A stretch of 22,397 bases of DNA. Source: Bacteroidales bacterium (lineage in GTDB: Bacteria > Bacteroidota > Bacteroidia > Bacteroidales > UBA932). This document shows positions 1 to 22,397 of this stretch, in pieces. Position numbers and translations under genes: made by a program. How positions within the stretch are numbered: the first letter of the stretch is position 1; each line of letters starts with the position of its first letter. The notes below the pieces were generated by a model that had not been told where the DNA came from, ran no database searches, and worked only from the letters and a program-made list of their open reading frames with translations. The DNA lies in NCBI GenBank assembly GCA_024683255.1, contig JAIKYL010000066.1, forward strand, positions 1 through 22,397, read 5' to 3'.

Positions 1-309
1 GGTTACGGGCATCAGGGAAAAGGCGCCGTAGTCGTTGATCCAGGGGCTGGGCTGGTGCGTCTGCTTCAGGCCGCGGATGTGGGTGGCGTCGTAACGGTAC
101 GTCCAGCCGTCGCCATCGGCCCCGGTCTGCGGCGTCCAGGCGTGCATCCCCCACGGTACGGCAATGGCCGGATAAGTGTTGCCGGTGGACAGGTTGTAGG
201 TGGAAAGCGTTCCCACCAGCGGGTTCACGTAATCCACCGGTTCCACGGCAGGTTTCCGGGCAGTGCAGCACACGGCCAACAGCAGCAATATGGGAAGGAA
301 CCTTTTCAT
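1..309 (-). CDS. GH92 family alpha-mannosidase, N-terminal part only (runs off window)
   Basis: Only the first 103 residues are present; the gene continues beyond base 1. Translation from the ATG at 309-307 gives a hydrophobic leader with a Cys-Cys pair at residues 14-15 (MKRFLPILLLLAVCC), so it is exported and possibly a lipoprotein, although the lipobox is not ideal. It then shows hallmarks of the GH92 N-terminal domain: DYVNPLVGT near residue 26, a STGNTYPAIAVPWGM block, WTPQTG, and KQTHQPSPWINDYG near residue 85. GH92 enzymes are calcium-dependent exo-alpha-mannosidases that trim N-glycans or yeast mannan. The start lies 2 bp beyond the stop of the upstream GH92, so both are almost certainly co-transcribed. 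The motifs differ clearly from those of its neighbour, so this is a second subgroup rather than a recent duplicate. The catalytic region is outside the window. Confidence 0.93.
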   Translation of the reverse strand, partial: MKRFLPILLLLAVCCTARKPAVEPVDYVNPLVGTLSTYNLSTGNTYPAIAVPWGMHAWTPQTGADGDGWTYRYDATHIRGLKQTHQPSPWINDYGAFSLMPVT

Positions 310-311
310 AA

Positions 312-2594
312 TCAGCGCCATTGAATGGTGGAGGCGTTCACCAGGTCGGTATGGGTAATGCGGAAGCCTTTGTTCTTGCCGTCCAGGCGTACGCGGGAAG
401 GGGCCGTTCCGCTGCGGGTAATTACCAGCGTATGACCGTCCGGCAGTGAAATCTCTGCCCGTTCAAAACTGGGACGGGTGAGGGTGTAGGACGGATCTCC
501 GGGGCAGTCCGGGTAGAGTCCCAGCATGGAAAAAACGGCCCAGGCACTCATGGTGCCGGTATCATCGTTGCCCGGAAGGCCGTCCGGGGCATTCTTGTAA
601 TAATCGGCCAGAATGCGTTCCACGGTGCTCCACGTCCACTTTTCGGACCCTTTGAAGCGGGAGAAGAGGTACGGATATACAATGTCCGGCTCGTTGGTGG
701 GGTCGTAGAATCCGCCTTCAAACACCTGCTGCAGCCGCTGGACATAGGTGCGGGACCCGCCCATCAGTTTGGCGTAGCCCTGCACATCGTGCGGAACGGC
801 AAACGTGTAGTTCCAGGCACTGCCCTCGTGGAAGCCGGGCGCGTTGGAGAAGTTGGCGCCGTCGGAGGGATCGAAAGGCGACAAGAAAGCACCGTCGGAA
901 CGGATGGGCCGAAGGCAGCCGTATTCCGCGCTGTAATAGTTCCGGTAGCCCAGCGAACGGCTTTTGAAACGGGCTGCGTCTTCCTCATAGCCCAGGGCCG
1001 ATGCCAGCTGGGACAGCGCATAATCGGCCACATAATATTCCAAGGCGTGGGAGACGGAGTTATCGCCGGAGAAATCGGCCGCGTAGAGGCCCAGGGGGAT
1101 GTATCCGCCTTCCAGGTACGGGTCGTTGTCCGGACGCATAAGGTTCTCGGCCCCGGGGGAATCGGCCGATTTCAAAAACGCCTCATAAGCTGTGCGGACG
1201 TCGAAATCCCGCAGGCCTTTGAGCCAGGTATCGGCAATTACCGGGATGGCGGGGTCTCCCTCCATGGTCCAGGTTTCCCGTCCGAAAAGTTCCCATTTGG
1301 GCATCCAGCCCCATTCGCGGTACATGTCGATCATGGAGCGGACCATATCCAGCTGCTTCTCCGGATACAGGAGCGTAAGGAGCGGATGCAGGTTCCGATA
1401 GGTGTCCCAGAGGGAGAAAACCGTATAGCGGTTGCCCCCGTCAATGGTGCCGATACCCTTTTCCCGCAGCTTCCTTAGAGGCACGCCGGCGGGGCCGGTA
1501 GGGATGGTATAATCGTCTATGGCAGAAGGATTTCCATATTCCATCAGGGGATACTGCCCGTTCACATCGTTCAGGATGCTGGGATGCAGCAGGCAGTGGT
1601 ATAGGGCCGTGTAAAACACCGTCATCCTGTCCACCGGACCTTCCACGCGGACGCGGCCCAGCGCCTCTTCCCAGGAGAGGGTGGCGGCATCGGCCACCGC
1701 GTCAAAGCGGAAGCCCTGCTGCTCGGCGTCCAGGTTGGCCCGGGCGTTCTCAATGGACACAAAGGACACGCCCACCTGCACCAGCACCTCTTCGCCGGCG
1801 GCCAGGCGGTCATAGTGGAACCAGAAGCCAATGTCGTCCCCACTCATTTCGCGGGCATAGGCGGTGTACAGCTTGTACTGGCCTGCATCGGCATCCCAGG
1901 CGCTTTCCGCGCCCATCGGCCGCTGTTTTTTCCAATAGCCGCAGGCCGATGGAAGCTTGTTCACCCGCAGCACAAAGTACAGCGGAAACACGGCCTGGCG
2001 GTTGTAGCAGAAGGTTCCCAGGAGTTTGGAGCCCTCAATTTCCGTATCCGAAACCCGCCGCACCGTGGCGCCGCTTTCGTTGGTAAGGCCTTCCCCCAGA
2101 TTCACCAGGATATTGCCCTCACCGCCCGGGAAGGTATAGCGCTCCAGGGAAGTGCGGGTGGTGGAGGTGACATCGGCCCGGATACCATTGAGCAGCGATA
2201 CCCCGTAATAGCCGGGACGGGCCACCTCCTCCGTGTATTCGCAGCCGTAAATGTGATAGTCCACCTGCACCGGCCCGGTGGTGGGCATGGTTAGCACGGA
2301 TCCTGCCTCCGGACAACCCACGCCGGAGAGGTTCACGTGCGAGAAGCCGGTGAAATAACGGTTTTCGGCCGTGTAGGGCGTGCTCCACCAGCGGCTGTCC
2401 TTGTCAAAGACGTTGAGGCTGGAGCCCATCACATTGAAGGGAGAGACGCTCATCATGCCGTTGGGCGTAACGGCGCCAGGGTTGCAGGCCCCGTAATTGG
2501 CCGTGCCGATGAAAGGATTCACATAAGAGGTAACCCCCTGCGCATGCAGAAGGCCGCTTACCAGGAGGAGGAGAAGGCTTAGGCGGAGCTTCAT
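312..2594 (-). CDS. GH92 family alpha-mannosidase (complete)
   Basis: This 760-residue protein has the usual GH92 length. A signal peptide (residues 1-18, ending LLHAQ) precedes YVNPFIGT at about residue 24, and a GAVTPNGMMSVSPF block follows. The C-terminal (alpha/alpha)6 domain carries SLWDTYR and the HEGSAWNYTF block, whose Glu at about residue 590 matches the family's catalytic acid. PGNDDTG at about 674-680 holds the Asp residues that act as catalytic base and calcium-site ligands in characterised members. From family knowledge it should remove terminal alpha-linked mannose by inversion in the periplasm or at the cell surface. The linkage (1,2, 1,3, 1,4 or 1,6) cannot be read from sequence. 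Its ATG overlaps the stop codon of the LacI gene (ATGA, 4 bp), so translation is probably coupled and the regulator likely governs this enzyme. Confidence 0.95.
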   Translation of the reverse strand: MKLRLSLLLLLVSGLLHAQGVTSYVNPFIGTANYGACNPGAVTPNGMMSVSPFNVMGSSLNVFDKDSRWWSTPYTAENRYFTGFSHVNLSGVGCPEAGSVLTMPTTGPVQVDYHIYGCEYTEEVARPGYYGVSLLNGIRADVTSTTRTSLERYTFPGGEGNILVNLGEGLTNESGATVRRVSDTEIEGSKLLGTFCYNRQAVFPLYFVLRVNKLPSACGYWKKQRPMGAESAWDADAGQYKLYTAYAREMSGDDIGFWFHYDRLAAGEEVLVQVGVSFVSIENARANLDAEQQGFRFDAVADAATLSWEEALGRVRVEGPVDRMTVFYTALYHCLLHPSILNDVNGQYPLMEYGNPSAIDDYTIPTGPAGVPLRKLREKGIGTIDGGNRYTVFSLWDTYRNLHPLLTLLYPEKQLDMVRSMIDMYREWGWMPKWELFGRETWTMEGDPAIPVIADTWLKGLRDFDVRTAYEAFLKSADSPGAENLMRPDNDPYLEGGYIPLGLYAADFSGDNSVSHALEYYVADYALSQLASALGYEEDAARFKSRSLGYRNYYSAEYGCLRPIRSDGAFLSPFDPSDGANFSNAPGFHEGSAWNYTFAVPHDVQGYAKLMGGSRTYVQRLQQVFEGGFYDPTNEPDIVYPYLFSRFKGSEKWTWSTVERILADYYKNAPDGLPGNDDTGTMSAWAVFSMLGLYPDCPGDPSYTLTRPSFERAEISLPDGHTLVITRSGTAPSRVRLDGKNKGFRITHTDLVNASTIQWR

Positions 2595-3598: not shown

Positions 3599-3611
3599 AG
3601 TTCTAATGCTT

Positions 3612-5102
3612 TTATTTGTGGGGGACCAGGATAAAGGCCGGGTCCGGAATAAGGGTCAGTTGGTTTCCGTGGCTGCGGAAGGAGAAAGGAGTGTCTCCCC
3701 TGAGGGTGAACCTTTCCGTCTCCAGCCAGGATGTTTCCGGGTGGGTTCCCTCTTCTCCGGAGGTTGTCCGAAGGGTTTTGAAGGCCGATGCGGCCCCCAG
3801 GTCCGGAGCCTGCCCGAAGTAGCGGAGGCCGCTTTCCCGGCCCTGCAGCCGGAAGGGCGTTCCGGGGCTTTCCACCTTCAGGACACCGCTCCCGAGTAAG
3901 GTAAAGACGGCGGTCCGGTCCGGGTAGCGGGCGCGCAGTACCAGGGAGTCTCCCTGCAGGTTCCAGCTGCACTGGGCGCGGCCCTCTGCCGGAAGGACCG
4001 GTGCCAAACCGCCAGGAAGCAGATCCCTGTCCTTTACGCGGAGGAACTTCACGCAGCCTTCGGCCCGGTCGAAGACCATCTCCACGTCTTTGCTTCTTAT
4101 TACCAGGCGGGTGTCTCCTTCCGTTACCGTAAGCGGCCCACTGGCTTGGAATTCCTCCGGAGAGGAGTTGTCTTTCAGGAGGAAGGATTCGCTGGCGAGA
4201 ACGCTGCCTTTTTCCACCAGCGGACGCTCTTCCCGGCTCACCGCCTCAAAGAACAGCCGGTATTCGCCGGGCTTTTTCATGCGGGGGAGTTTGATACGGA
4301 ACTCTTCGGCACTGCCGGGCTCCGTTTCAAAATGAAGTTTTCGCTTGAACAGGCGTTTCAGGGGCTTTCCGTCCCGTTCCACCCACCAGCGTATGGTGTA
4401 ATCTTCCAGGGAGGAGAACTGCCGGCGGTTTTCTATCCGGAATAGGCCGTTCTCCGGCTCTACGGCCTCTATGCCGATATCCTGCCAGGCATGGCGTACG
4501 GCCGCGGAACGGGTGTCCGGCCGCTCCAGGCTGTCCGGTTTTGGATACAGATAGAATCCGGCGCTGTCGCAAAGCTCCTGCAGCGCCCGGGAAAGGGGAG
4601 CGGTGTTAAGGGCATTGACGCCCGCCTTCTTAAGCGCCGCCAGCGTTTCCCGCCGCACTTGGCCGCTTAAGTTGGCACCCCGGAAAGGGACCTTGCAGCC
4701 GTTCACCATAAAGGTATCCTTCTTATAGGGCTCAATGCGCCGGAAGGCCACCGGGTGGTAGCTGTCCTTGTTATCCACCTTCAAGTGGAGGGTGTAAAGC
4801 TGCGGGGTTTCTGCCGTCCATTGGCGTACGTCCCGGAGGCGGTCCGGCACGGTTTCCGTGGTATCCCGGACACGGTACAAGGCATCGGCCAAAACGGTGC
4901 CGTCCTGGTCAATGAGCTCGTAAAACACTTCCACAGGCTTTTCAGAGCGCAGTTCCAGCTGGAAAAGGCCCGTTAGCATGTCCTCTTCCAGCGTGGCCTT
5001 CACGTCATAGTCCACCCCGGTCGGCCCGCTTGGAAGGGCGGGTACGTTCCTGCTGCAGGCAAGCAGCACCAAGGCAGCTCCTATGACGGCGAGGCGTCTC
5101 AT
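3612..5102 (-). CDS. Truncated, probably non-catalytic GH2 (beta-galactosidase-like) lipoprotein
   Basis: The 496-residue protein starts with a lipoprotein signal (LVLLAC, Cys16) and then resembles only parts of a LacZ-type GH2 enzyme. Residues about 30-125 look like the immunoglobulin-like domain 2, ending in WTAETPQLYTLHLKV and the FRRIEP block. FMVNGCKVPFRGANLSGQ (131-148) matches the GH2 motif leading into the barrel, followed by a stub (ETLAALKKAGVNALNTAPL, ELCDSAGFYLYPK). Residue 205 onward resumes with domain 4 (ENGLFRIENRRQFSSLEDYT), and about 322-496 resembles part of domain 5 (YFGQAPDL). The N-terminal jelly roll and most of the TIM barrel, including the general acid/base (NE) and nucleophile Glu strands, are absent; normal relatives exceed 1000 residues. 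The frame is intact, so this is not a simple frameshift wreck. Its start overlaps the rnr stop (ATGA). A sugar-binding or scaffold role is speculative. Confidence 0.8.
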   Translation of the reverse strand: MRRLAVIGAALVLLACSRNVPALPSGPTGVDYDVKATLEEDMLTGLFQLELRSEKPVEVFYELIDQDGTVLADALYRVRDTTETVPDRLRDVRQWTAETPQLYTLHLKVDNKDSYHPVAFRRIEPYKKDTFMVNGCKVPFRGANLSGQVRRETLAALKKAGVNALNTAPLSRALQELCDSAGFYLYPKPDSLERPDTRSAAVRHAWQDIGIEAVEPENGLFRIENRRQFSSLEDYTIRWWVERDGKPLKRLFKRKLHFETEPGSAEEFRIKLPRMKKPGEYRLFFEAVSREERPLVEKGSVLASESFLLKDNSSPEEFQASGPLTVTEGDTRLVIRSKDVEMVFDRAEGCVKFLRVKDRDLLPGGLAPVLPAEGRAQCSWNLQGDSLVLRARYPDRTAVFTLLGSGVLKVESPGTPFRLQGRESGLRYFGQAPDLGAASAFKTLRTTSGEEGTHPETSWLETERFTLRGDTPFSFRSHGNQLTLIPDPAFILVPHK

Positions 5103-7237
5103 TTCCGGCTTCTTTTCCGGGGACGGGCCTCTCGCCGCTCCATGTAGTCCTCCATCTCGGAGGTCTCAGTTACTTCTTCGGCCGGTTTTTCGTGCTCCGG
5201 TTCTACCAGTTCGTAGTCCAGGAGCTTCTGCTCCAGGTTGGTGCCCTTCACGCGGATGCGCACCGGGTCTCCCAGGCGGAGGGAATGGTGGGTGCGGCGG
5301 CCCACGGCGCGGTAATGGTCTTCGTCAAAGACATAGAAGTCTCCCCGGATGGTGCGGTAGGAGACCATGCCTTCAATCTTGGTGGGATCAATCTCCACGT
5401 AAATGCCCCATTCCGTAACGCCGGAGACATGGCCGTCGAATTCCTGGCCGATCTTGTCCTCCATGAATTCCACCAGCTTGTACTTGGTGCTCTCCCGTTC
5501 GGCCTCGGCGGCCACCACTTCCCGCTCGCTGGCGTGCTTGCACTGGGCGGCGTAATAGTCGGCGCTCTGGGAATCGGCCCCGGCCATGTACAGGGCCAGC
5601 AGGCGATGCACCATCATGTCAGGATAACGCCGGATGGGAGAGGTGAAGTGCGTATAGAAGTTGAACGCCAGGCCATAGTGGCCGATATTGTCGATGGAGT
5701 AGCAGGCCTTGGCCATGGAGCGCAGCGCCAGGATCTGGATGGCCCCCAGCTCCGGTTTGTCGGCCGCATCCTTCATGAGGCCGTTGAGGGTCTTGGCGAT
5801 GTCCTTTCCGTTCTCGATGGGCCCCACCTTGTAGCCGAAGTGGCCGGCGAAGTCCCTGAGGCCGGAAAGCTTTTCCATGTTGGGGAGGTCGTGCACACGG
5901 TAAACGAAAGTCTTGGCTTTGGCCTGGGCCTTTCCGCCCATCTTGCCGCCCGTGGCCACATACTCCGCAACATTGCGGTTTGCGAGTAGCATGAACTCCT
6001 CAATGAGCCAGTTGGCTTCCCTCGAGAATTTCTGGTGCACGCCAATCGGCTTTCCATTCTCGTCAATGTCCACCTTCATTTCCGGGCGGTCAAAATCCAC
6101 CGCGCCGGCGGCAAAACGCTTTTTGCGCAGCTTGAGGGCCAGGTCATTGAGGGTGAGGATGGCTTCCTTGATTTCCGGCGGCACAATCCCGCTCTCGCTG
6201 CCTTTGCCGAACTCCTGCTCCATGGCCTGGGGACCGGCGTCGATGATGGCTTGGGCCAGTTCATAGTCAAAACGGTAATCCGAAATGATATTTGTCCGGC
6301 CGAACCAGGGGTTGATCACCTTGGCCTGGGGCGTAACTTCAAAGACGGCCGAGAAGGTGAGTTTTTCCTCCTGCGGGCGCAGGGAACAGAGCTTGTTGGA
6401 GAGCTTTTCCGGGAGCATCGGCACGGTGCGGTCCACCAGATACACGGAGGTTCCCCGCTCCTGGGCTTCCTTATCTACGGCCGATCCGGGACGCACGTAA
6501 TAAGTGACATCGGCAATGTGCACGCCCACTTCATAATTACCGTTTTCCAGCTTGCGGAAGCTGAGGGCATCGTCGTAGTCCTTGGCGTCCGTGGGGTCTA
6601 TGGTAAAGGTGAGCACCTGCCGGAAGTCCCGCCGATGGGCGCGGTCCTTGTCCGTGATGGTGTCCGGAATCTGGTCGGCAGCGTTTTCCACTTCTTTGGA
6701 GAAGCGGTACGGAAGGCCGAATTCGGCCAGGATGGCGTGCATCTCCGTCTCGTTCTCCCCTGGCATGCCCAAAACGTCTACCACATGACCGTGCGGCCCT
6801 GCTTCCCCGCGCTCCCAGCCGTCCACCACGGCGGCCACCTTCATGCCCCGTACGCCGCCTTCCGGCACCGGGACCGAAATATCGTAAGGCATGGTCTTGG
6901 AGCTCATGAGCACCCAGGCCTGCTTGCCCACAATGTGCAGGATACCCACAAAAGGCTTGTTGCTGCGTTCCAGTACGGCGATGATTTCCCCGCTGCGGCG
7001 CTTGGCACTGCCCACTTTCTCCTGGGTCACGGCCACCCGCACGGTATCCCCGTGCAGGGCTCCGCGGGTCTTGGAAGCCTTCACATACACGTCTTCCTCC
7101 TGCCCTTCTATGCGCACGAACACGAATCCTTCGCGCGACATGAGGGCCGTCCCCACAAACTCCGGTACTACATGCTTTTTCTTCTTCTTTCCACCGGCCG
7201 CCTGGCCGCCTTTCTTGCGGTTTTTGTTCTTGGACAT
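5099..7237 (-). CDS. rnr: Ribonuclease R (RNase II/R family 3'-5' exoribonuclease)
   Basis: This 712-residue protein has the full RNase R layout. A Lys/Arg-rich start (residues 1-21) precedes cold-shock/OB folds (about 25-150). The RNB catalytic domain follows, with the magnesium-binding cluster TIDPTDAKDYDDALS at 212-226 and the downstream block HFTSPIRRYPDMMVHRLL. An S1 RNA-binding domain (GQEFDGHVSGVTEWGIYVEI) and another basic tail (RREARPRKRSRK) end it. It degrades structured RNA processively from the 3' end in the cytoplasm, in mRNA turnover and rRNA quality control. The start is set by the basic N-terminus and by a TATATTTG promoter element 23 bp upstream. The stop overlaps the next gene's ATG by 4 bp, so an exported sugar-related lipoprotein is co-translated with it, which is unexpected. 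Confidence 0.96.
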   Translation of the reverse strand: MSKNKNRKKGGQAAGGKKKKKHVVPEFVGTALMSREGFVFVRIEGQEEDVYVKASKTRGALHGDTVRVAVTQEKVGSAKRRSGEIIAVLERSNKPFVGILHIVGKQAWVLMSSKTMPYDISVPVPEGGVRGMKVAAVVDGWERGEAGPHGHVVDVLGMPGENETEMHAILAEFGLPYRFSKEVENAADQIPDTITDKDRAHRRDFRQVLTFTIDPTDAKDYDDALSFRKLENGNYEVGVHIADVTYYVRPGSAVDKEAQERGTSVYLVDRTVPMLPEKLSNKLCSLRPQEEKLTFSAVFEVTPQAKVINPWFGRTNIISDYRFDYELAQAIIDAGPQAMEQEFGKGSESGIVPPEIKEAILTLNDLALKLRKKRFAAGAVDFDRPEMKVDIDENGKPIGVHQKFSREANWLIEEFMLLANRNVAEYVATGGKMGGKAQAKAKTFVYRVHDLPNMEKLSGLRDFAGHFGYKVGPIENGKDIAKTLNGLMKDAADKPELGAIQILALRSMAKACYSIDNIGHYGLAFNFYTHFTSPIRRYPDMMVHRLLALYMAGADSQSADYYAAQCKHASEREVVAAEAERESTKYKLVEFMEDKIGQEFDGHVSGVTEWGIYVEIDPTKIEGMVSYRTIRGDFYVFDEDHYRAVGRRTHHSLRLGDPVRIRVKGTNLEQKLLDYELVEPEHEKPAEEVTETSEMEDYMERREARPRKRSRK

Positions 7238-7340: not shown

Positions 7341-7994
7341 TTACCGGTACAGTTCCCGGAGGACGGAGAGGGAGCGGATATTGATGGGCTGGTCCGTGTG
7401 AAATTCCAGATAGCGGAGGAGCGTGTCGCAGAGGTCGCTGCGCTGCTGTCCGGAGAGGGGGATGAGCATGGCCTCGGAGAAGCCGCTTTCCAGGAAGGGC
7501 TTCAGCAGGGGAGCGTTTTCCCCGGCGAACGGGACCACATCGGCAAAAGTGGGCCGAAAACCCAGCGCCCCCGAGAGCTCCAGCAGGAAACGGACGTGGA
7601 AGTTGGCAAAATCCTCCTCCAGGGCGTCCAGGGTTAGGATGCTGCTCACACACCATTCGTACAGGCCGTCCTCATAGGTGCCTTCCCGGAGCGTCCGGAA
7701 AAGTACTTCGGAGAGGAACAGGCTCATGGTGTTTTTGTGGAGGTTGCCCCGGATGCCGTTGAGGGTGTCCCGGGCCTGGATGTTCCGGATGCTCCAGAGC
7801 TCACTCTTGGGGTTTTCCACTACCTCGGCCTCCAGGATGTTCAGCGGAAGCAGCAGGGCCGTCCCCGCCTTCCGGGCCGATGGTACCAGAAACCCGCGCC
7901 GTCCCCATTCCCGCGACAGGGTGTGCACCACTACCGCGTTTTCCCCCACTTTGGTGGTGGTAAGGACAATGAGCTCTGTGGTTCCTTTATTCAT
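7341..7994 (-). CDS. recO: DNA repair protein RecO
   Basis: A 217-residue protein of the RecO family. The N-terminal OB-fold half (IVLTTTKVGENAVVVHTLSR, then GRRGFLVPSAR) precedes a helical C-terminal half with FLLELSGALGFRP. RecO works with RecR to load RecA onto SSB-coated single-stranded DNA during gap repair. It is a little shorter than many RecO proteins (about 240), and the four-cysteine zinc motif seen in some families is not visible, as is common in Bacteroidetes. Its start overlaps the rdgB stop by 8 bp, so the two are co-transcribed and probably translationally coupled. The weakly conserved family makes sequence-only calling less certain, but the N-terminal pattern and the conserved FLLELSGALGF block support it. 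Confidence 0.88.
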   Translation of the reverse strand: MNKGTTELIVLTTTKVGENAVVVHTLSREWGRRGFLVPSARKAGTALLLPLNILEAEVVENPKSELWSIRNIQARDTLNGIRGNLHKNTMSLFLSEVLFRTLREGTYEDGLYEWCVSSILTLDALEEDFANFHVRFLLELSGALGFRPTFADVVPFAGENAPLLKPFLESGFSEAMLIPLSGQQRSDLCDTLLRYLEFHTDQPINIRSLSVLRELYR

Positions 7995-14466: not shown

Positions 14467-15434
14467 TACACGGTGCGGCCAACAAGCTTTTGGGCAAAGT
14501 TATCAAGAACCTCACGCTTCTGCGGATCAAATCCTTGCAGCTTGTCAACGGCGCTCCGGTGTAGGGCGGCAATTTCCTTGCGCGCCAGGGCGGGGATGTT
14601 CAGGGATTCGTAGATGGCTTTTACGGTGGCAATCTTATGGGCCTTCTGCTCAGGCGTTTCCGCCGGCAGGGCCAGGCTTTCCTGCAGGCCTTGGGCACCG
14701 CATTCCAGCGCTTTCACCGTGAGCCAGGACTTCTTGTTGTTCACAATGTCTCCGCCGATGGGTTTGCCAAAAACGGCTGCATCTCCGTACGCATCCAGAT
14801 AGTCATCGGCCACCTGGAACGCCAGGCCCAGGTCGTAACCATAGGCATAGATGGCGCGGCATTCCTCCTCCGGAGCTCCGGCGATGATGGCGCCCATCTG
14901 GGCCGAACAGGCAATGAGGACGGCTGTCTTAAGGCCGATCATCTGCATGTAGTCTGCCATGGGAACCACGTCCAGATTCTCGAAATCCATGTCCAGCTGC
15001 TGGCCGTCGCAGACCTCCGCCGCCGTCCTGGAAAACAGCGCCAGCACGGCGGGAAGCACGGGTGCAGGGGCCTGGATGAGGCGCCTGTAGGAATCTATGC
15101 ACATGACATCTCCGCTGAGGATGGCGGTATCCTGATTCCATTTCTTCCATACGGTGTCCTGCCCCCGGCGCATGGACGAGCGGTCCATGATGTCGTCGTG
15201 GATGAGGGTGAAGGTGTGGAAGACTTCCAATCCCGCCGCCGGCTCCAGTATCTCCGGCCCGAAGGAATCCTTATACAGGCCGAAGGTGGTGAGGCAAAGC
15301 CGCGGACGCAGCCGTTTTCCGCCAATGGCAATCATGTACCGGAGCGGGTCGTACAGCCCTTTGGGCGCGTCCTGGAACTGGATATTCTGGAAAAGGTCCT
15401 TAATGGCAAGGTCTAGGTGGGATTCGCTGATCAT
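14466..15434 (-). CDS. Polyprenyl (geranylgeranyl/farnesyl-type) diphosphate synthase
   Basis: 322 residues from the chosen start. It has the trans-prenyltransferase blocks: GGKRLRPRL, the first Asp-rich motif HDDIMDRS followed by RRG, the GQQLDMDFE block, a K-T-A block (GLKTAVLI), and the second Asp-rich motif FQVADDYLDAYGD with GGDIVNNKKS downstream. It condenses IPP units onto an allylic diphosphate in the cytoplasm for quinones or undecaprenyl carrier. The chain length (C15, C20 or longer) is not certain from sequence. The frame stays open 16 codons further upstream, but those codons contain the TATCTTTG promoter element, so the ATG at 15434 is preferred. A 1-bp overlap links it to the YfcC carrier. 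Confidence 0.92.
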   Translation of the reverse strand: MISESHLDLAIKDLFQNIQFQDAPKGLYDPLRYMIAIGGKRLRPRLCLTTFGLYKDSFGPEILEPAAGLEVFHTFTLIHDDIMDRSSMRRGQDTVWKKWNQDTAILSGDVMCIDSYRRLIQAPAPVLPAVLALFSRTAAEVCDGQQLDMDFENLDVVPMADYMQMIGLKTAVLIACSAQMGAIIAGAPEEECRAIYAYGYDLGLAFQVADDYLDAYGDAAVFGKPIGGDIVNNKKSWLTVKALECGAQGLQESLALPAETPEQKAHKIATVKAIYESLNIPALARKEIAALHRSAVDKLQGFDPQKREVLDNFAQKLVGRTV

Positions 15435-15486: not shown

Positions 15487-16803
15487 CTAGAACTCCAGCC
15501 GGCCGCCGCGGTAAAAGTCCACCAGACGGGTCTGGAAGAGATACTCGTAAGTGGCCTGGACGGCGTCCGAGCGGGTCTTCAGGAGCTGGTTCCGGGACTC
15601 GTTGAATTCCGTGACCGTGGCCTTGCCGTTCTCGTATTTGGCCTGGACCAGGGTGAATGAATCTTCAGCCGCGGCGGAAGCAATCTGCGAGGCCTCCCAT
15701 TTGGCGCGAGCGGCTTCGGCTGCGTTCCAGGCCTGCTGGATCTCTTTGTACAGGTTCTGCTTCACGCGGCGAAGGGCAATCTCCTGGTTCACCTGGTTCA
15801 GTTTGGCGGAGCGCACCTGGTTCCGGGTACTGAACTTGGTGAAGATGGGAATGTTGAGAGACACTCCCAAGTAAGAGCTGAAGTTGCTCTTTAGCTGGTC
15901 AAAGAAGGCTTTTCCGCCATAATTGGAGTAGTAATTGGTGCCGCTGCCGCCGCTGATGGAAAGGGACGGGAAGTAATTGCTCTTGGCAATAGCGATGGAA
16001 CGCTCCGTTCCCTTCAGACGCAGCTCTTCGGCCCGGATGGCGGGGCGGATACCCAGCGCCTGTGCGTAGATATCGTCCGGCGTGCCCAGGAAAACGCCTT
16101 CCATGGAAACATTGGGCCGAACGATGGAAAAGCCTTCCCAGGTGCCCAGCTCCAGCAGTTGGGCCAGGTCCAATAGGGACGCGCGCACATTATTATCGGC
16201 CTGCACCAGCGTTACACGGCTCTGGGCCAGGGAGGCCTTCTGCTGGGACACTTCGGCGGCGGAGGAGCGGCCGCTCTCGAACATGCGTTCCAGGCGCTCC
16301 ACCTGCAGGGAATCGATGGCGATCTGCTGCAGTGCAACATCGCGGATCTCATAGCTGTACAGGATCTGGACATAGGCCTGGGCCACCTGGACGCGGATAT
16401 CGTCCTTGGCCTTTTCCAGATCGGCCAGGGCAGCCTCCAGGTTCAAATCCGAAAGACGGATCTGGTTGTACGTGGCGCCACCGTCAAAGAGGTTCATGTT
16501 GGCGCCGATGCTGAAGCCCGTGGAGCTGGAGTTACCGCTCTCGTAGGTATTGTCTCCGCCCAGGCCGCGGCCGAAGCTGAAGTTTTCGCTGGCCGATGCG
16601 CTAACGCCGGGCAGCCAGCTCATGTGGGCGGTGTTCCGGTCAATTTCCCGGCTCTCCACGCTGTTGGCCTGCTGGGCCACCGTGAGGTTGTGCTCCATGG
16701 CCCAGGAAGTGCATTCCGCCAGGGTCCAGGGATGCGAAAAGTCCGGAAGGGTATCGGCCGGAGCCTGCAGGGCAAAGGCCAGTGCTAAAAGTAACGCTTT
16801 CAT
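15487..16803 (-). CDS. TolC-like outer membrane efflux protein
   Basis: A 438-residue outer-membrane channel protein. The signal peptide is residues 1-17, followed by the family start WTLAECTSWAMEHNLTVAQQ. Two outer-membrane efflux repeats are visible. The first includes FSIGANMNLFDGGATYNQIRL and the long helix LEKAKDDIRVQVAQAYVQILY; the second includes GVSLNIPIFTKFSTRNQVRSA and the helix IQQAWNAAEAARAKWEAS, with FTLVQAKYENGKATVTEFNE near the end. As a trimer it would form the exit duct of the tripartite pump encoded just upstream. It begins 2 bp after the adaptor gene and is the last gene of the operon. No convincing terminator is visible in the 52 bp after its stop. Confidence 0.95.
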   Translation of the reverse strand: MKALLLALAFALQAPADTLPDFSHPWTLAECTSWAMEHNLTVAQQANSVESREIDRNTAHMSWLPGVSASASENFSFGRGLGGDNTYESGNSSSTGFSIGANMNLFDGGATYNQIRLSDLNLEAALADLEKAKDDIRVQVAQAYVQILYSYEIRDVALQQIAIDSLQVERLERMFESGRSSAAEVSQQKASLAQSRVTLVQADNNVRASLLDLAQLLELGTWEGFSIVRPNVSMEGVFLGTPDDIYAQALGIRPAIRAEELRLKGTERSIAIAKSNYFPSLSISGGSGTNYYSNYGGKAFFDQLKSNFSSYLGVSLNIPIFTKFSTRNQVRSAKLNQVNQEIALRRVKQNLYKEIQQAWNAAEAARAKWEASQIASAAAEDSFTLVQAKYENGKATVTEFNESRNQLLKTRSDAVQATYEYLFQTRLVDFYRGGRLEF

Positions 16804-16805: not shown

Positions 16806-17891
16806 CTAGATGATTTGAGGACCCCGGACCTTATCTTCAAGGGAAAGGCCGCTCTTGATTTCAATGTTCACGCCGTCGGAAAGGCCGGTTTCCACCGGAC
16901 GGTTCTCGTAGGTGCCATCGGCCTTGAGCACGTAGACGAAGGTATCGTCTCCTTCAAACTGGATGGCGCTTTCCGGGATCATGAGTACGTTCTCCACTCG
17001 CTGGAGCTCAATCTCCGCATTGGCGCTGTAGCCGCTGCGGATGGTAATGTCGGAAGGAACCTTCACCGTGGCTTTGATCTCAAAGAGGTTGGTGCCGTTG
17101 GATTCAGTGGCCTTGGGGGCGATGTACTCCAGGGCGGCGTCAAAGTGCAGGTCCTGCAGGGCGCCCACGGTGATAATCACCGGCAGGCCGATGTGCAGGC
17201 GGCCCACCTCCGTCTCGTCGATGTTGCCGTCGAAGATGAGGTCGTCCATATCGGCCACGGTGGCGATGGTGGTACCGTCGTTGAAGGTGTTGGAGTTGAT
17301 GACGGTGTTACCCACCTTCACCGGAATGTCCAGGATGAGGCCGGCAACGGAGGAACGCACCAGGGTGGAACTGCCGCTCTTATTGGATGAAGAAACACCA
17401 TCGCGCACAATCTCCAGGGCTTCCTGGGAGGCGGCGTACTCTTCCTGCGCCTGCTTGAGGGCCTGGGCCACCTGCTCGAAGGATTCGGCACTCACCAACT
17501 GCTGGTCAAAGAGCTTCTTCTCTCGCTCGTAGTTGGTCTGGGCCTGCTTCAGGTTCACTTCGCTAAGACGCACGCGGCTCTGGGCCGATGAAAGCTGGCT
17601 CATCTCCGGAATCACCTTGAGCTTGGCAATAACCTCGTTTTCCTTCACCTGGTCGCCGGCCTGCTTGTACAGCTCGGCCACGATACCGCTGATCTGGGCC
17701 TTCACGTTAACCTCGTCCCGGGGCTGGATTTTGCCCGTTACAACGGTGGATTTGGCAATGGTGCCCATTTCGGGCGTGAGTTCCTGGTACTGGATATCCT
17801 TGGGACGGGACCGCTGGAACAGGTACACGAAGGTGCCGATGAAAGCGGCCGCCACCAGGATAATCATCAAAATTCTACCAAACTTTTTCAT
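16806..17891 (-). CDS. Periplasmic adaptor protein (HlyD/MacA family)
   Basis: A 361-residue membrane-fusion protein. One N-terminal membrane anchor (ILMIILVAAAFIGTFVYLF, residues 7-25) holds it in the inner membrane. A half-lipoyl segment (VTGKIQPRDEVNVKAQISGI) precedes a coiled-coil hairpin (about residues 95-165, rich in Gln, Glu and Ala). The second half-lipoyl (STLVRSSVAGLILDIPVKVG) and beta-barrel domain (FDGNIDETEVGRLHIGLPV) follow. It would bridge the MacB-like permeases and the TolC-like channel. The gene starts 106 bp after the permease stop, the only sizeable gap in this operon, and that gap holds two REP-like hairpins. Expression could therefore differ from that of the upstream genes. 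Confidence 0.95.
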   Translation of the reverse strand: MKKFGRILMIILVAAAFIGTFVYLFQRSRPKDIQYQELTPEMGTIAKSTVVTGKIQPRDEVNVKAQISGIVAELYKQAGDQVKENEVIAKLKVIPEMSQLSSAQSRVRLSEVNLKQAQTNYEREKKLFDQQLVSAESFEQVAQALKQAQEEYAASQEALEIVRDGVSSSNKSGSSTLVRSSVAGLILDIPVKVGNTVINSNTFNDGTTIATVADMDDLIFDGNIDETEVGRLHIGLPVIITVGALQDLHFDAALEYIAPKATESNGTNLFEIKATVKVPSDITIRSGYSANAEIELQRVENVLMIPESAIQFEGDDTFVYVLKADGTYENRPVETGLSDGVNIEIKSGLSLEDKVRGPQII

Positions 17892-17917: not shown

Positions 17918-17997
17918 GAGATTGCCGATCAAATCAAGTCGGCAATGACGTTTTGTGTCAGCAATAACCGTCATGCCCGGCCCCGACCGGGCATCTC
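17918..17997. repeat. Inverted pair of REP-like palindromic units (BIME-like)
   Basis: Unit 1 (17918-17950) is GAG, stem ATTGCCGA, a 10-nt loop, stem TCGGCAAT, then GACG. Unit 2 (17969-17997) is CGTC, stem ATGCCCGG, loop CCCCGA, stem CCGGGCAT, then CTC. Read in reverse complement, unit 1 has the same flanks as unit 2 (CGTCAT and ATCTC), while the stem bases differ with compensating changes. This is the structure expected of mobile REP elements in inverted pairs. The pair abuts the permease stop codon and fills the permease-adaptor gap. No transposase is visible nearby. Confidence 0.75.
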
Positions 17998-19254
17998 CTA
18001 TTCGTCTCTCATGGCATCCACGGGCTTGATCTGCATGGCCCGGGCGGCAGGCATCAATCCGGCCAGCACGCCCAGCACCGCCAGCAGGACGGCTGCCAGC
18101 ACGGCGGTCCAGAAAGGCACCTGGAAGGGGGCCTTGAGCACGCCGTCCGTGGTCATGGCCAGTTCCACTCCGGAGAGGATGAGCACGCTGAACACGATGG
18201 CCGACATGCCGGCTACCAGCGTGAGCACGATGCTTTCGGAGATGATCTGCCCCAGGATCTGGTTGGGCGTGGCGCCGATGGCGCGCCGGATACCAATCTC
18301 CGTGGTGCGTTCCTTCACGCTCACCATCATGATGTTGGACACGCCGATCACTCCGGCCAGCAGCGTTCCTAGGCCGATGAGCCAGATAAGGAAATTGATG
18401 CCGTTGAACAGGTTGTCTACGATGCCGAAGATGAGCTGGGTGTTCAGCAGGAACAGGGCCTGCTCGTCGGTGGGGTCTACATAATGCTTTCTGGCAATCA
18501 CTTCCCGCACACGGGGCGTGAGGTCGCTCATCGTAATGCCGGGCTTGGCCGTGAAGCAAAGCAGGTGCACGGTGTTGCCCAGGTTGTAGGCCCGGCGGGC
18601 TTGGTTGATGGGGAGGGTAACCGCATCGGATGCACTTCCGTTGATGCTGATTCCGCCGGAATCCCTCCAGTCCACGCCAATCACCGTATAATAACTCCCG
18701 TCCACGCTCACCCTTTGGCCCAGCGGGCTTCCGCCTTCGGGGAAGAGTTCTTCATAGACCCGTTTGCCGATGACGCATACCTTCCGCTCCTGCAGATTGT
18801 CGGCGTCGTTCAGCCATCGGCCGTATTTCATCTCGGGCGTTTCTATATTGGCATAATCGGCCCGGGCGCCTTTCACTACGGCGCGGGAGGAAGTATGTTC
18901 GTCGCGGGTTACGCTTTTACCCCAGAGACTTACGGAAGGGGTAACAGTCTCCAATTCCGGAACCATGTTCTTGAGGCGGTCCACATCTCCGTAGTCCAGA
19001 TTCCAGGTCCGACCCTTTTCAAATCCTTTGTAGGGCTTGGTGGTCCTGTCGGTTGCTATGATGCAGGTGTTCTGGGCAAAGCCCTCGAAGTTCTGGACCA
19101 GGAGTTCCTTGAAGCCCTGGCCGCCGCCGGTTAGGAGCATGAGCATGAATACGCCCCAGAACACACCGAAACCGGTGAGGAGGCTGCGGGATTTGTTCCT
19201 GAGGATGCTGTCCAGGATTTCCCGGAAGGTATCTGTATCAAACCACTTTTTCAT
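17998..19254 (-). CDS. MacB-like ABC transporter permease (second)
   Basis: A 418-residue permease of the MacB/FtsX superfamily. TM1 (SLLTGFGVFWGVFMLMLLTG, about residues 24-43) is followed by a large periplasmic domain (about 45-275). Three C-terminal membrane segments lie at about 285-310, 335-360 and 375-400. The coupling-helix block GVIGVSNIMMVSVKERTTEIG followed by RRAIGATPNQIL is the conserved FtsX-domain motif. It carries no ATPase domain and must share the ATPase encoded at the head of the operon. Its ATG overlaps the stop of the first permease by 1 bp (TGATG). With that permease it probably forms a heterodimer in the inner membrane. Confidence 0.93.
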   Translation of the reverse strand: MKKWFDTDTFREILDSILRNKSRSLLTGFGVFWGVFMLMLLTGGGQGFKELLVQNFEGFAQNTCIIATDRTTKPYKGFEKGRTWNLDYGDVDRLKNMVPELETVTPSVSLWGKSVTRDEHTSSRAVVKGARADYANIETPEMKYGRWLNDADNLQERKVCVIGKRVYEELFPEGGSPLGQRVSVDGSYYTVIGVDWRDSGGISINGSASDAVTLPINQARRAYNLGNTVHLLCFTAKPGITMSDLTPRVREVIARKHYVDPTDEQALFLLNTQLIFGIVDNLFNGINFLIWLIGLGTLLAGVIGVSNIMMVSVKERTTEIGIRRAIGATPNQILGQIISESIVLTLVAGMSAIVFSVLILSGVELAMTTDGVLKAPFQVPFWTAVLAAVLLAVLGVLAGLMPAARAMQIKPVDAMRDE

Positions 19255-20516
19255 CAGTCGGCCCTCAATGCTTCAATGGGTTTAACACGCGCCGCTTTCC
19301 AGGCGGGGATGGCCCCGGCGATGGTTCCGGCGATAATAAGCAGCAGGGTGGCTTCCAGGGCCACGTCCAGGCCAACGGTGGGGTCCACCAGCATCTGGAT
19401 CTTCTCTCCGCCTATATCTATCGAGCGCTGGGCTACGGTCTTGTCCATAATCTGGCACGCCACCATCCCCAGGAACATCCCTATATAACCGAAGGCGGCG
19501 GTGATGGTAATGCTTTCGGCAATGATGAGTTTGAGGATTTCGCCGGGCTTGGCGCCGATAGCCTTTCGGATGCCGAACTCGTGGGTGCGTTCCTTCACGG
19601 TGATGAGCATGATGTTGGATACGCCCACTATGCCGCTGATGAGGGTGAGGATACCCAGGATCCAGAGGGCTATGTTGATCATCCGGGAAGCCTTGTTCAT
19701 CTCCAGGTTGTCGGTATAGCCGTTGTTGATCCAGATGCCACGGCGGTCGTCCGGGGCAATGTCGTGCCGGAGCCGGATGGCGGTGCCGTACAGTTTCTCG
19801 AAGGCTTCGTGTTCCTCCAGGGTTTCCGGTCCGGTGACGGAGAAGGAGATGCTCTCCACCTTGTCCGTGTTGTCGTAGATACCTTTATACGTAGAGAAAG
19901 GGATGGGGCACAGGCGCGACATTTCCGATTCGTCGGTGTGATAGATGCCGACAACCCGGTAGGAGATGGCGCCGGCGGCAATCCATCGGCCCAGGATGGC
20001 GTCCGGGTCTTTGGGGGACAGTTCCCTGGCTTGATAGAGGCTGATGACAATGACTTTGCGGCGTTCGTCCACATCGTCCGGATTCAGGAAGCGGCCGGTG
20101 TACATCCGCATCTTTTCGGCCTCCTTGTAGTCCGGCATCACCCCGCGGAGGGCGCCGGACACGCTGAGTCCGTTCAAGGATAGGGAGACGCTGGTGACGC
20201 CGGTTCCGCGATAGACGTCGTGGATAATCCCTTTCCACTGCTCTGATTCGGTGAAAAGGACATCGCTCTCGTCCAGCTGGATGTCCCGCCCTTCCTTGTA
20301 TCCGGCATAGGGCTTGGAGGTACGCCAGCCCTCTACGGTGATATTCTGTGAGATATAGTCCTCGATATTGCCCATGAAGGAGTTCATGAGGCCGTTGCCG
20401 GCTCCCAGCAGGGCAATGAGCAGGAAGATACCCCAGCTCACCGCGAAGCCCGTTAGGGCCGTGCGGAGCTTGTTGTTGCGCAGGGTGCTGCTTATTTCGT
20501 GGAATAATTCTCGCAT
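19254..20516 (-). CDS. MacB-like ABC transporter permease (first)
   Basis: A 420-residue permease similar in build to its neighbour but clearly different in sequence. TM1 (LTGFAVSWGIFLLIALLGAG) is followed by a periplasmic core domain of about 230 residues, then three C-terminal membrane segments. The conserved block GVSNIMLITVKERTHEFG followed by RKAIGAKPGEILKLI marks the FtsX/MacB permease family. Family members work by mechanotransmission, driving periplasmic substrates or lipoproteins out through a TolC-type duct. The ATG overlaps the ATPase stop by 1 bp (TAATG) and the stop overlaps the next permease start by 1 bp, so all three subunits are translationally coupled. Confidence 0.93.
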   Translation of the reverse strand: MRELFHEISSTLRNNKLRTALTGFAVSWGIFLLIALLGAGNGLMNSFMGNIEDYISQNITVEGWRTSKPYAGYKEGRDIQLDESDVLFTESEQWKGIIHDVYRGTGVTSVSLSLNGLSVSGALRGVMPDYKEAEKMRMYTGRFLNPDDVDERRKVIVISLYQARELSPKDPDAILGRWIAAGAISYRVVGIYHTDESEMSRLCPIPFSTYKGIYDNTDKVESISFSVTGPETLEEHEAFEKLYGTAIRLRHDIAPDDRRGIWINNGYTDNLEMNKASRMINIALWILGILTLISGIVGVSNIMLITVKERTHEFGIRKAIGAKPGEILKLIIAESITITAAFGYIGMFLGMVACQIMDKTVAQRSIDIGGEKIQMLVDPTVGLDVALEATLLLIIAGTIAGAIPAWKAARVKPIEALRAD

Positions 20517-21229
20517 TACTTGATGATGCTGCCGCCCCAGGCGGAGTGGGACCGGTTCTCTTCTATCTCGCCGATGATGCCGTCCTTGATGTGGATGATC
20601 TTGTCCGTCTCGTTGGCCACGCCGCCCTCGTGGGTAACCACTATGATGGTGAGGCCTTCTTCCTGGTTCAGCTGCTTGAGGAGCTGCATCACTTCCACGC
20701 TGGTCTTGGAATCCAGGGCGCCGGTGGGCTCATCGGCCAGGATGATCTGCGGCTTGGTGATGAGGGCGCGGGCGATGGCCACACGCTGCTTCTGACCACC
20801 GGACATCTCGTTGGGGAAGTGTCCGGCCCACTGGGTAAGGCCCAGCTTCTCCAGATACTCCATGGCCATCTCGTGCCGCTTTTTCCGGCCTATGCCCTGA
20901 TAGTAAAGCGGCAGTTCCACGTTCTCCACGGCCGTCTTGAAGTTAATCAGGTTGAAGCTTTGGAACACAAAGCCGATCATCCGGTTGCGGTAGTCGGCGC
21001 TCTGGCGTTCCGAAAGGTCCTTGATGAGGGTTCCGCCCAGGTGGTAGGTTCCTTCGTCGTAATTGTCCAGGATGCCCAGGATATTGAGGAGCGTGGACTT
21101 TCCGGATCCGGATGCACCCATGATTGAGACGAATTCGCCCTTTTCTATATTAAGGTCAATGCCTTTGAGCACGTGCAGGGGCTGCCCGTTGTCATAGGTC
21201 TTGTGAATTCCGTTAAGCTCGATAAGCAT
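20516..21229 (-). CDS. ABC transporter ATP-binding protein (MacB/LolD family)
   Basis: A 237-residue ATPase with every expected motif: Walker A GASGSGKST (38-46), Q-loop VFQSFNL (Q90), signature MSGGQ (142-146), Walker B ILADEPTGALD (163-173) and H-loop His200. The DEPTGALD sequence and short length place it in the MacB/LolD/FtsE group, which energises separate FtsX-type permeases. It heads an ATPase, permease, permease, adaptor, channel operon. By family knowledge such pumps export peptides, antibiotics or envelope molecules; the cargo here is unknown. A good promoter lies about 31 bp upstream. Confidence 0.96.
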   Translation of the reverse strand: MLIELNGIHKTYDNGQPLHVLKGIDLNIEKGEFVSIMGASGSGKSTLLNILGILDNYDEGTYHLGGTLIKDLSERQSADYRNRMIGFVFQSFNLINFKTAVENVELPLYYQGIGRKKRHEMAMEYLEKLGLTQWAGHFPNEMSGGQKQRVAIARALITKPQIILADEPTGALDSKTSVEVMQLLKQLNQEEGLTIIVVTHEGGVANETDKIIHIKDGIIGEIEENRSHSAWGGSIIK

Positions 21230-21260
21230 CTTGTCGCTGTATTAGTATGCTATTACACTG

Positions 21261-21291: not shown

Positions 21292-21322
21292 ATTTTTTCG
21301 ATAAAAAGGCCGATTTTTTCGA
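21292..21322. repeat. 10-bp direct repeat upstream of the efflux promoter
   Basis: ATTTTTTCGA occurs at 21292-21301 and again at 21313-21322, a period of 21 bp or two helical turns. The first copy abuts the -33 box of the efflux promoter. In-phase direct repeats at this position are typical activator or response-regulator sites; the binding protein is unknown. Confidence 0.5.
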
Positions 21323-21429
21323 CGAGTAATCCGGTGCCGGTCTTCTCTTCTTTGCAAAAAACCTGCCCTTTTGGAAAAAAATCACTATTTTAGCGGTCCG
21401 TAACTGAAAAGAATACAATAACAGATATT

Positions 21430-22397
21430 ATGGCAGATCAGATTAAGAAAACCCTTCGCGACTCGGCGGCCATGCGCTGGACAGCCCTGCTGCTGCTGGC
21501 CCTCGCGATGTTTTGCAGCTACATTTTCATGGACATCCTGTCCCCCATCAAGGACCTGATGCAGGAAACCCGTGGATGGGACTCCACCGCCTTCGGAACC
21601 ATGCAGGGCAGCGAGGTGTTCCTGAATGTATTTGTGTTCTTCCTCATCTTCGCGGGTATCATCCTGGATAAGATGGGCGTCCGCTTCACCGCCGTGCTAA
21701 GCGCCGGGGTGATGCTGGTGGGCGCTATCATCAAGTGGTTCGCCGTGAGCGAATCCTTCATGGGCAGTGGCCTGGAGACCTGGTTCACGAACAACCTCAA
21801 TTATATTCCGCTCTTCGATGAGCTGGGCGTGTCGCCTTTCTACCGGGGCATGCCGGCATCGGCCAAACTGGCGGCCTGCGGCTTCATGATCTTCGGCTGC
21901 GGCTGCGAGATGGCCGGCATTACGGTGAGCCGCGGTATAGTGAAGTGGTTCAAGGGACGTGAGATGGCCCTGGCCATGGGTTCGGAGATGGCCCTGGCCC
22001 GCCTGGGCGTTGCCACCTGCATGATTTTCTCCCCCTTCTTCGCCAAGCTGGGCGGCAGCGTGGACGTTTCCCGCTCCGTGGCCTTCGGCGTGGTGCTCCT
22101 TTGCATCGCCCTCATCATGACCATCGTCTACTTCTTCATGGACAAGAAGCTGGACAGCCAGACCGGAGAGGCCGAAGAGAAAGACGACCCGTTCAAGGTG
22201 AGCGATATCGGCAAGATCCTCTCGGACGGCGGATTCTGGATCGTGGCCCTGCTGTGCGTGCTTTATTACAGCGCCATCTTCCCCTTCCAGAAGTATGCGG
22301 TGAATATGCTCCAGTGCAACCTTACGCTGGTGGAACCCGCAGCCGATTCCTTCTGGGCCGGTTCCAGCGTAACTATAGTCCAGTACGTCATCATGCT
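21430..22397 (+). CDS. MFS transporter (MFSD1-like), N-terminal 322 residues, runs off window
   Basis: The frame opens at the ATG at 21430 (MADQIKKTLRDSAAMRWTAL) and stays open to the window end. TM1 is ALLLLALAMFCSYIFMDILS, followed by a typical MFS loop and TM2 (VFLNVFVFFLIFAGIILDKMG, where GIILDKMGVR resembles MFS motif A). TM3 is AVLSAGVMLVGAIIKWFA. GFMIFGCGCEMAGITVSRGIVKWFKGREMALAMG matches the MFS helix 4-5 region, and at least one further TM follows before the window ends. The DILSPIKDLM and KGREMALAMG pattern is like lysosomal MFSD1-related carriers and their Bacteroidetes homologues. The eukaryotic relative moves dipeptides; the substrate here is unknown. About 35 residues after TM3 form an unusually long periplasmic loop. 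It is transcribed away from the efflux operon. Confidence 0.88.
   Translation, partial: MADQIKKTLRDSAAMRWTALLLLALAMFCSYIFMDILSPIKDLMQETRGWDSTAFGTMQGSEVFLNVFVFFLIFAGIILDKMGVRFTAVLSAGVMLVGAIIKWFAVSESFMGSGLETWFTNNLNYIPLFDELGVSPFYRGMPASAKLAACGFMIFGCGCEMAGITVSRGIVKWFKGREMALAMGSEMALARLGVATCMIFSPFFAKLGGSVDVSRSVAFGVVLLCIALIMTIVYFFMDKKLDSQTGEAEEKDDPFKVSDIGKILSDGGFWIVALLCVLYYSAIFPFQKYAVNMLQCNLTLVEPAADSFWAGSSVTIVQYVIM

Follow-up and report, generated by a model that had tools for sequence, protein, structure and literature searches.

An iterated seven-base DNA word marks one clade of Candidatus Cryptobacteroides-like Bacteroidales

To our knowledge, highly iterated chromosomal words are known mainly from cyanobacteria, with highly iterated palindrome 1 (HIP1), and from two proteobacterial families, with DNA uptake sequences (DUS) and uptake signal sequences (USS). 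The accessible part of one study describes eight DUS dialects in the Neisseriaceae that follow phylogeny (PMC3630211). Within the Bacteroidota, the accessible part of a report on the naturally competent Riemerella columbina describes a preference for its own DNA (PMC7965970), together with A/T-rich k-mers above base-composition expectation, whose function the authors left open (PMC7965970). Here we analyze a 22,397-base stretch of Bacteroidales DNA (hereafter the window; GC content 58%), an ordinary piece of chromosome that carries 54 copies of the word ATCGGCC, or 2.41 per kb. An earlier note made from the letters of the window had drawn attention to this word and knew of no such named element in Bacteroidetes; the literature searched likewise yielded no report of such words in Bacteroidota, as judged from listings in which large result sets were covered in part.

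The 54 exact copies comprise 34 on the plus strand and 20 on the minus strand, close to the roughly 52 (33 and 18) counted previously by eye, and each of the 13 positions named at that time lies at most 2 bases from a real copy. Dinucleotide shuffles of the window give an expectation of 6.0, somewhat above the four or so copies first thought due to chance, and 54 or more were reached in 0 of 100 shuffles; the over-representation stands. A strict codon null, which permutes codons sharing the amino acid, the first two bases, and the following base and thereby keeps proteins, codon usage, and codon-junction dinucleotides, predicts 9.7 ± 2.6 copies (100 shuffles), and the fall to expectation under a codon model that the earlier note had allowed for was not seen. 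No heptamer of the window ranks above ATCGGCC under any of four nulls, namely first- and second-order Markov models and codon shuffles that either keep or ignore the junction base. The base before TCGGCC is A in 54 cases and C, G, or T in 5 + 5 + 21 = 31, so A prevails as claimed, at a ratio of 1.7 to 1 rather than the “about twice” initially estimated. By reading frame, 24 copies fall in NNG-GCC-GAT (Ala-Asp), 16 in NNA-TCG-GCC (Ser-Ala), 8 in ATC-GGC-C (Ile-Gly), 3 in GGC-CGA-T, and 2 in NGG-CCG-AT, and one copy (at 21308) lies outside gene calls. The frame tally and coordinates agree with the frames described in the earlier note, including the CGA codon at 9779 and the single intergenic copy.

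The enrichment is not confined to the window, as whole-genome counts show. The nearest genome compared (G001, 2.3 Mb) contains 3,643 copies of ATCGGCC (1,821 + 1,822 by strand) vs 267 of the reversed word (129 + 138), and other close relatives are enriched genome-wide as well, which answers the earlier call for a look at related genomes. Across 101 genomes of G001’s genus, an even draw from the larger group of that genus, the ratio of ATCGGCC to the reversed word varies from about 0.7 to 13.6, and the excess is therefore no genus-wide composition effect. The reversed word offers a coarse comparison only, being skewed for CATCGAC, and claims on other words therefore rest on codon nulls. Relatives were taken as the best 80 of 594 matches to the window’s RNase R; these belong to the Bacteroidales or Bacteroidia, many come from ruminants, and they include one Prevotellaceae, one Candidatus Merdivivens, and two Candidatus Cryptobacteroides. 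An RNase R tree was built from 83 rows (the 80 relatives, G001, G020, and the window; none dropped), 40 of which have whole-genome counts. All 13 genomes with a whole-genome ratio above 6 lie within one 22-row clade of this tree, and eight other rows of the clade have ratios of 1.8 to 5.5. The word, in the form (C/T)ATCGGC(C), thus marks one clade of Candidatus Cryptobacteroides-like Bacteroidales, and some sister lineages lack it. The two named members among the relatives on the tree suggest that the genus is Candidatus Cryptobacteroides, a name that taxonomy places in the Bacteroidales. Densities of ATCGGCC, measured in 25 stretches, range from 0.8 to 2.4 per kb; the locus-by-locus word survey covered loci longer than 10 kb, 5 of 81 being shorter or equal in length and set aside.

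The force that maintains ATCGGCC acts at the level of DNA and is indifferent to reading frame, strand, and gene direction. Counted over 646 kb, drawn from the window and five word-rich genomes, each of the six frame/strand classes exceeds a codon-preserving null, with observed/expected counts of 238/89.5, 22/7.6, and 261/23.4 in the sense frames and 68/11.5, 19/2.1, and 427/105.4 in the antisense frames. Over the same DNA, the flanks of the ATCGGC core show C or T at −1 and a strong C at +6, with nothing notable beyond. In GGC_T contexts, where it completes the word, the rare codon CGA accounts for 68 of 136 Arg codons in word-rich genomes vs 1 of 57 in word-poor genomes, while its share of all Arg codons is 4.4% and 5.7%, respectively. 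The dipeptides Ile-Gly, Ser-Ala, and Ala-Asp occur at 1.12 to 1.16 times their level in low genomes (ranks 18, 32, and 25 of 317), and Gly-Arg at 0.96 times.

Silent positions tell the same story. The window aligns with G001 over 20,796 bases at 90.0% identity, and 111 of 121 silent third positions inside window words are kept there, vs an expected 92.8 ± 4.1 derived from matching codons, followed by an identical base, that lie outside words. The corresponding figures are 37/53 (expected 30.4 ± 3.0) for G020 and 17/22 (14.6 ± 2.0) and 28/31 (18.4 ± 2.4) for two contigs of G104. The enrichment at synonymous sites that the earlier note had wished to see examined is therefore present, both in these positions and in CGA choice. 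The codon-null excess, its occurrence in all frames, silent-base conservation, and CGA choice together indicate that the pressure acts on DNA. Of the earlier idea of “selection for the DNA word itself”, pressure on the word in all frames is retained, which may reflect either selection or a biased repair or conversion process. Copies outside open reading frame calls number 36 vs 6.0 expected, which is weak evidence since the calls are impure and context puts many of these copies in genes dropped by the gene caller. When intergenic DNA is defined by the absence of any stop-to-stop frame of at least 90 amino acids, 8 copies vs 1.1 expected are found in 10 kb; with at least 60 amino acids, the numbers are 1 vs 0.4 in 4 kb, and both are likewise weak.

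The word is strand-blind along the chromosome. No strand bias was detected in 25 loci (chi-square sum 12.75, 25 degrees of freedom, p 0.98), and the strand of ATCGGCC did not track gene direction in the same loci, each of which spans 10 kb or more (17 shorter loci of the 42 were left out). Regular spacing was not seen either, as 1,044 spacings fit random scatter (Kolmogorov–Smirnov p 0.59). Neighbors in opposite orientation make up 56.5% for ATCGGCC, the highest value among 68 frequent heptamers scanned (median 45.4%), and same-strand pairs at 8–200 bases number 177 vs 240 expected, a range in which the codon null is uneven too. The stretches measured contain eight word-free gaps of 4 kb or more. 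Annotation was carried out for four stretches covering six gaps, and 10 proteins from three of these stretches were compared with Pfam; they comprise a transposase, a SusC-type plug protein, SusD, two BACON proteins, NAGPA, a GHL10 hydrolase, one sub-cut-off fimbrillin match, and two proteins without a family. These contents fit, without proving, a slow accumulation of the word in resident DNA.

Different words occur in some relatives. A k-mer survey covered 41 relatives, the window, and Escherichia coli (19 to 193 kb per genome), with a frame test on nine relatives and words scored by the Bonferroni-adjusted −log10 p. Clear cases are CATATGC, GGGAATAT, and TCCCGAC; CATCGAC and others are less clear. 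CATATGC in G126 reaches 116/27.3 in coding DNA with an excess in all six frame classes, as do GGGAATA (57/17.5) and ATATTCC (69/21.9) in coding DNA of G128, whose tree neighbor G132 has the same word family. GTCGGGA in G139 (32/2.4 in coding DNA and 3/0.2 outside genes) exceeds expectation in five of six frame classes; the tree position of this genome’s locus (L079) is unsure owing to a long branch. CATCGAC in G110 is a moderate case (103/48.7 in 84 kb), and TGTCTAT (38/11.9) and TATGGAC (51/17.8) in G116 are a weak one. In a 100-kb E. coli control, CACCAGC, which is part of Chi, scores 5.0 and CGCCAGC, for which we know of no role, scores 4.5, so words scoring below about 5 do not rise above what such a genome yields. 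Outside the word-rich set, only G126 (24.5), G139 (13.8), G128 (10.8), G110 (7.1), G113 (5.7), and G132 (5.5) exceed the E. coli level, with G116 (4.8), G129 (4.7), G137 (2.9), G136 (2.3), and G127 (2.2) below it. A heptamer score of 2 is reached in 10 of 13 surveyed word-rich genomes and is not reached in 17 of 28 relatives outside that set, some of which are represented by only about 20 kb.

ATCGGCC itself is at codon-null expectation in G126, G128, G139, G116, and G102. The last of these has an RNase R 85% identical to that of the window and no detectable word in 53 kb; its locus L001, similar in GC content to the window, holds 10 copies vs 8.6 under the codon null, although the rough reversed control still gives a whole-genome ratio of 3.3 (607 to 182). 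Since G102, G116 (L015), and the G110 group fall inside the ATCGGCC clade on the RNase R tree, they appear to have lost the word or exchanged it for another. The dialects are congruent with phylogeny as mapped by eye on this one-gene tree, with counts for 40 of 83 rows. A template CATNNNC shared among the words ranks 4 of 8,960 over six lineages, 22 over six genomes without G110, and 18 over 20 genomes, a link that is suggestive only because the template was picked after the words were seen. A second, weaker word, TCCGGA(A), with the palindromic core TCCGGA, was also observed: TCCGGAA reaches 334/165.2 in coding DNA of word-rich genomes, lies above expectation in six of six frame classes, and is raised in several relatives whatever their main word, as well as in G129 and G134.

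These data establish a DNA-level, strand-blind, and clade-specific force, which does not imply a benefit to the cells. By analogy with described systems, we tentatively favor the reading that ATCGGCC is a lineage-specific self-recognition word read by a putative strand-blind system. A putative sequence-specific DNA-binding protein would recognize the word in DNA that is broken or enters the cell; self-DNA bearing the word would then be incorporated by homologous recombination, driving word frequency up to saturation in the way suggested for DNA uptake sequences. This protein may be linked to ComEC and operate without a type IV pilus, and a change in its specificity would give rise to new word dialects. 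Self-recognition spread by recombination would account for the asymmetry of the word, its presence on both strands, the different words of relatives, and silent-site maintenance. The fuller picture, which we put forward with more reserve as a possibility, is of a DNA password in uncultured gut Bacteroidales: an asymmetric word of 7 to 8 bases, present thousands of times, recognized without a type IV pilus or methyltransferase and changed more than once among close relatives, that may mark self-DNA and limit gene exchange.

Several observations weigh against self-recognition. Searches with Pfam profiles against 35 genomes (16 of them word-rich) found the inner-membrane DNA channel ComEC (PF03772) in 35 of 35; because it is also present in genomes without a detectable word, ComEC does not explain which genomes have one. 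We know of no natural competence in this group. USS and DUS run to 9 and 12 bases and are thus longer than this word, which exceeds the codon null by about 2 to 6-fold. PF00437, the ATPase of type IV pili and type II secretion, scores over cut-off in 0 of 16 word-rich genomes and 2 of 35 in all, which disfavors the known form of DUS. The DUS receptor ComP is a pilin. According to the parts of the sources available, ComP belongs to type IV pili (PMC3868556, PMC3630211), as does the predicted USS receptor ComN (PMC12616744). No receptor gene was found, and no systematic search for one was made. Whole-word conservation in G001 (38/52, 73%) is unexceptional next to a median of 67% for 140 frequent heptamers, so that the sign of maintenance lies in the silent bases. 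Neighboring words also alternate in orientation slightly above the codon null (795 opposite vs 613 same-strand; null 921 to 848; L004 was left out since it overlaps G105:C4), a pattern that self-recognition does not predict and that we do not use as evidence because it is partly in the codon null and does not occur with three other words. Weak PF00437 matches, at profile positions 139–220 and mostly in frames of about 700 amino acids, were judged to be other proteins. A clear PF00437 ATPase (419.5 bits) occurs at G042:C1:329707-330810 (L298), in a genome without ATCGGCC excess; the word-rich genomes are without one.

The alternative that survives best, though we consider it unlikely, is a functionless bias in which a sequence-specific nick, mismatch repair, or gene conversion turns near-words into the word as a by-product. 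Near-words were counted in a set of word-rich loci (L003, L004, L005, L007, L013, L016, and L017), where one-substitution neighbors of ATCGGCC are mostly at or below expectation, with TTCGGCC (231/136) and ATCGGCA (210/88) as clear exceptions. The depletion of ATCGG[A/G/T]C (9/25, 14/35, and 8/23), CTCGGCC (65/101), and ATCAGCC (25/39) is in line with such a conversion; A[A/C/G]CGGCC, however, remain at expectation (96/92, 102/96, and 89/88). The depletion does not discriminate in any case, since any drive depletes near-words at synonymous positions. A by-product would also be blind to frame and strand and have the slight amino-acid effects seen here, yet a new heptamer target in some lineages would probably need a variable recognition protein anyway. 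In the same loci, some words containing GATC are strongly avoided (GATCGCC 0 vs 19.3 and CGTGATC 2 vs 18.0), a pattern suggestive of restriction avoidance or of another force that is sequence-specific.

Self-recognition would not call for a methyltransferase, whereas a HIP1-like origin would. According to the accessible part of his paper, Elhai proposed a methyltransferase/mismatch-repair origin for cyanobacterial HIPs (PMC4390886); applied here, an orphan methyltransferase would modify the word, methyl-directed mismatch repair would create and preserve it, and a change of enzyme would yield new words. The sharp ends, a density of around 1 to 2 per kb, occurrence in all frames, and other words in relatives resemble what that part describes (PMC4390886). 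ATCGGCC is no palindrome, unlike HIPs, and no methyltransferase common to the word-rich genomes was found among the five families searched. PF00145 (C5 methyltransferase) scores over cut-off in 10 of 35 genomes (4 of 16 word-rich), PF01555 in 10 (3), PF02384 in 15 (3), and PF02086 in 5 (3). PF07669, run against 26 genomes, does so in 13, including at most 7 of the 16 word-rich genomes, or 5 without the borderline G114 and G029, whose matches pass the cut-off only with their neighbors. Five of the 16 word-rich genomes (G001, G078, G104, G109, and G125) yield no match over cut-off to any of the five families, and neither does G126 with its strong word CATATGC. The genomes are draft metagenome-assembled genomes (completeness 90% for G001 and 80% for G078), in which single absences mean little; a conserved methyltransferase of these families is nevertheless unlikely, as it should not be missing from five word-rich genomes. 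These results make a HIP1-like origin quite improbable and lend no support to the methylation target suggested in the earlier note. The search for a matching methyltransferase or competence system that the note had proposed turned up ComEC in all 35 genomes, and in the word-rich ones neither a common methyltransferase of the five families nor a pilus ATPase over cut-off. Weak PF07669 matches in frames of about 301 amino acids were judged to be other proteins, presumably akin to the release-factor methylase PrmC.

A Chi-like recombination hotspot, read on one strand by AddAB or RecBCD, is just as improbable. Such a site would be short, asymmetric, lineage-specific, and over-represented, as ATCGGCC is, and the same null ranks Chi (GCTGGTGG, 33/10.3) first among 8-mers in 100 kb of E. 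coli. The orientation of Chi follows replication. In two control stretches of E. coli, it is skewed 1 to 7 and 8 to 17, whereas ATCGGCC shows no departure from equal strand counts in the 25 loci; a polar site is thereby rejected, and the Chi-like reading offered earlier is left unsupported. Very unlikely, too, is a binding site for an abundant nucleoid or chromosome-organizing protein that needs dense, strand-blind sites. The word occurs in all stretches measured, without polarity, at random spacing, and with sharp ends, all of which would suit such a protein; none with such a site has been identified or was searched for, and a structural role would be hard to square with thousands of sites switching between close relatives. 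Codon, codon-pair, amino-acid, or dinucleotide bias can practically be dismissed: although 48 of the 54 window copies lie in Ala-Asp, Ser-Ala, or Ile-Gly readings, the excess persists with protein, codons, and junction bases fixed, antisense and rare-codon frames share it, CGA use speaks against it, and L001 of similar GC content is at expectation.

Within the window, plus-strand copies match exactly at 115–121, 603–609, 1023–1029, 1074–1080, 1161–1167, 1689–1695, 1915–1921, 2172–2178, 2891–2897, 2903–2909, 4884–4890, 5573–5579, 9517–9523, 9616–9622, 10102–10108, 10469–10475, 10960–10966, 11456–11462, 11820–11826, 12852–12858, 13466–13472, 13939–13945, 14365–14371, 14805–14811, 16195–16201, 16420–16426, 16753–16759, 16917–16923, 17250–17256, 18816–18822, 18856–18862, 19985–19991, 20732–20738, and 21858–21864. 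The minus-strand copies lie at 996–1002, 1164–1170, 1944–1950, 3783–3789, 5446–5452, 5680–5686, 6479–6485, 7875–7881, 8269–8275, 9779–9785, 10774–10780, 11194–11200, 13450–13456, 14203–14209, 14933–14939, 16591–16597, 17186–17192, 17583–17589, 18372–18378, and 21308–21314, again as exact matches. The copies at 1161–1167 and 1164–1170 overlap to form the palindrome ATCGGCCGAT (1161–1170), present where it had been reported. The copy at 9779–9785 reads GGC-CGA-T by its coordinates, so that the S41 peptidase gene (8744–10369) here uses CGA, a rare codon for Arg. That at 21308–21314, the sole copy outside gene calls, sits in AT-rich sequence between an A run and a T run, as do non-genic copies at 228 and 3279 of L016. 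Other copies outside gene calls lie beside one A or T run (L113 at 13071, 13100, 15364, 19270, and 19299; L174 at 16725), and one such stretch recurs within L113.

The genes of the window include those for RNase R, RecO, a Ham1-type pyrophosphatase, S41 and U32 peptidases, a polyprenyl synthetase, a GH92 hydrolase, a LacI-type regulator, and an efflux set of OEP, HlyD, two MacB/FtsX permeases, and an ABC ATPase. A short hairpin-forming intergenic element (GCCCGG..CCGGGC) at 17968–17998 is a dispersed palindromic repeat, with matches of about 30 bases at 27, 28, and 12 places in G020, G029, and G078 and one each in G001 and G104.

These Bacteroidales, a large uncultured gut genus in which several lineages have words of their own, would offer a further, independent case of iterated words, one in which the origin and switching of such words could be tested directly. 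The word would point to a new sequence-specific DNA recognition system and provide a simple marker of self vs foreign DNA and for assigning rumen metagenome contigs to lineages, as well as a practical hint toward transforming these bacteria.

Compared with known systems, ATCGGCC resembles E. coli Chi in being short, asymmetric, and over-represented; it differs in lacking the polarity of Chi, which is skewed in the control stretches, and in its density of 0.8 to 2.4 copies per kb, where 100 kb of E. coli hold 33 Chi sites. Like HIP1 (GCGATCGC) of cyanobacteria, as described in the accessible part of the source, it is a short word iterated at about 1 per kb or more in any coding frame, and other words replace the main word in some genomes, as alternate HIPs do (PMC4390886). 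HIPs are palindromes with cognate methyltransferases, whereas ATCGGCC is asymmetric, shows no base preference from +7 that would complete a palindrome, and has none of the five enzyme families in common among its genomes. Unlike DUS and USS, the word has seven to eight bases and a roughly 2 to 6-fold excess over the codon null, and the genomes rich in it show no ATPase of type IV pili over cut-off. Among the analogues first proposed, the polar Chi site and the methylation target find no support, and the HIP1-like and uptake-like words stay as analogies. Like the uptake words of the Neisseriaceae and Pasteurellaceae, as far as the available part of the source describes them, ATCGGCC is asymmetric, occurs in thousands of copies on both strands, and has dialects that follow phylogeny (PMC3630211), and like the systems that read those words, its genomes encode ComEC.

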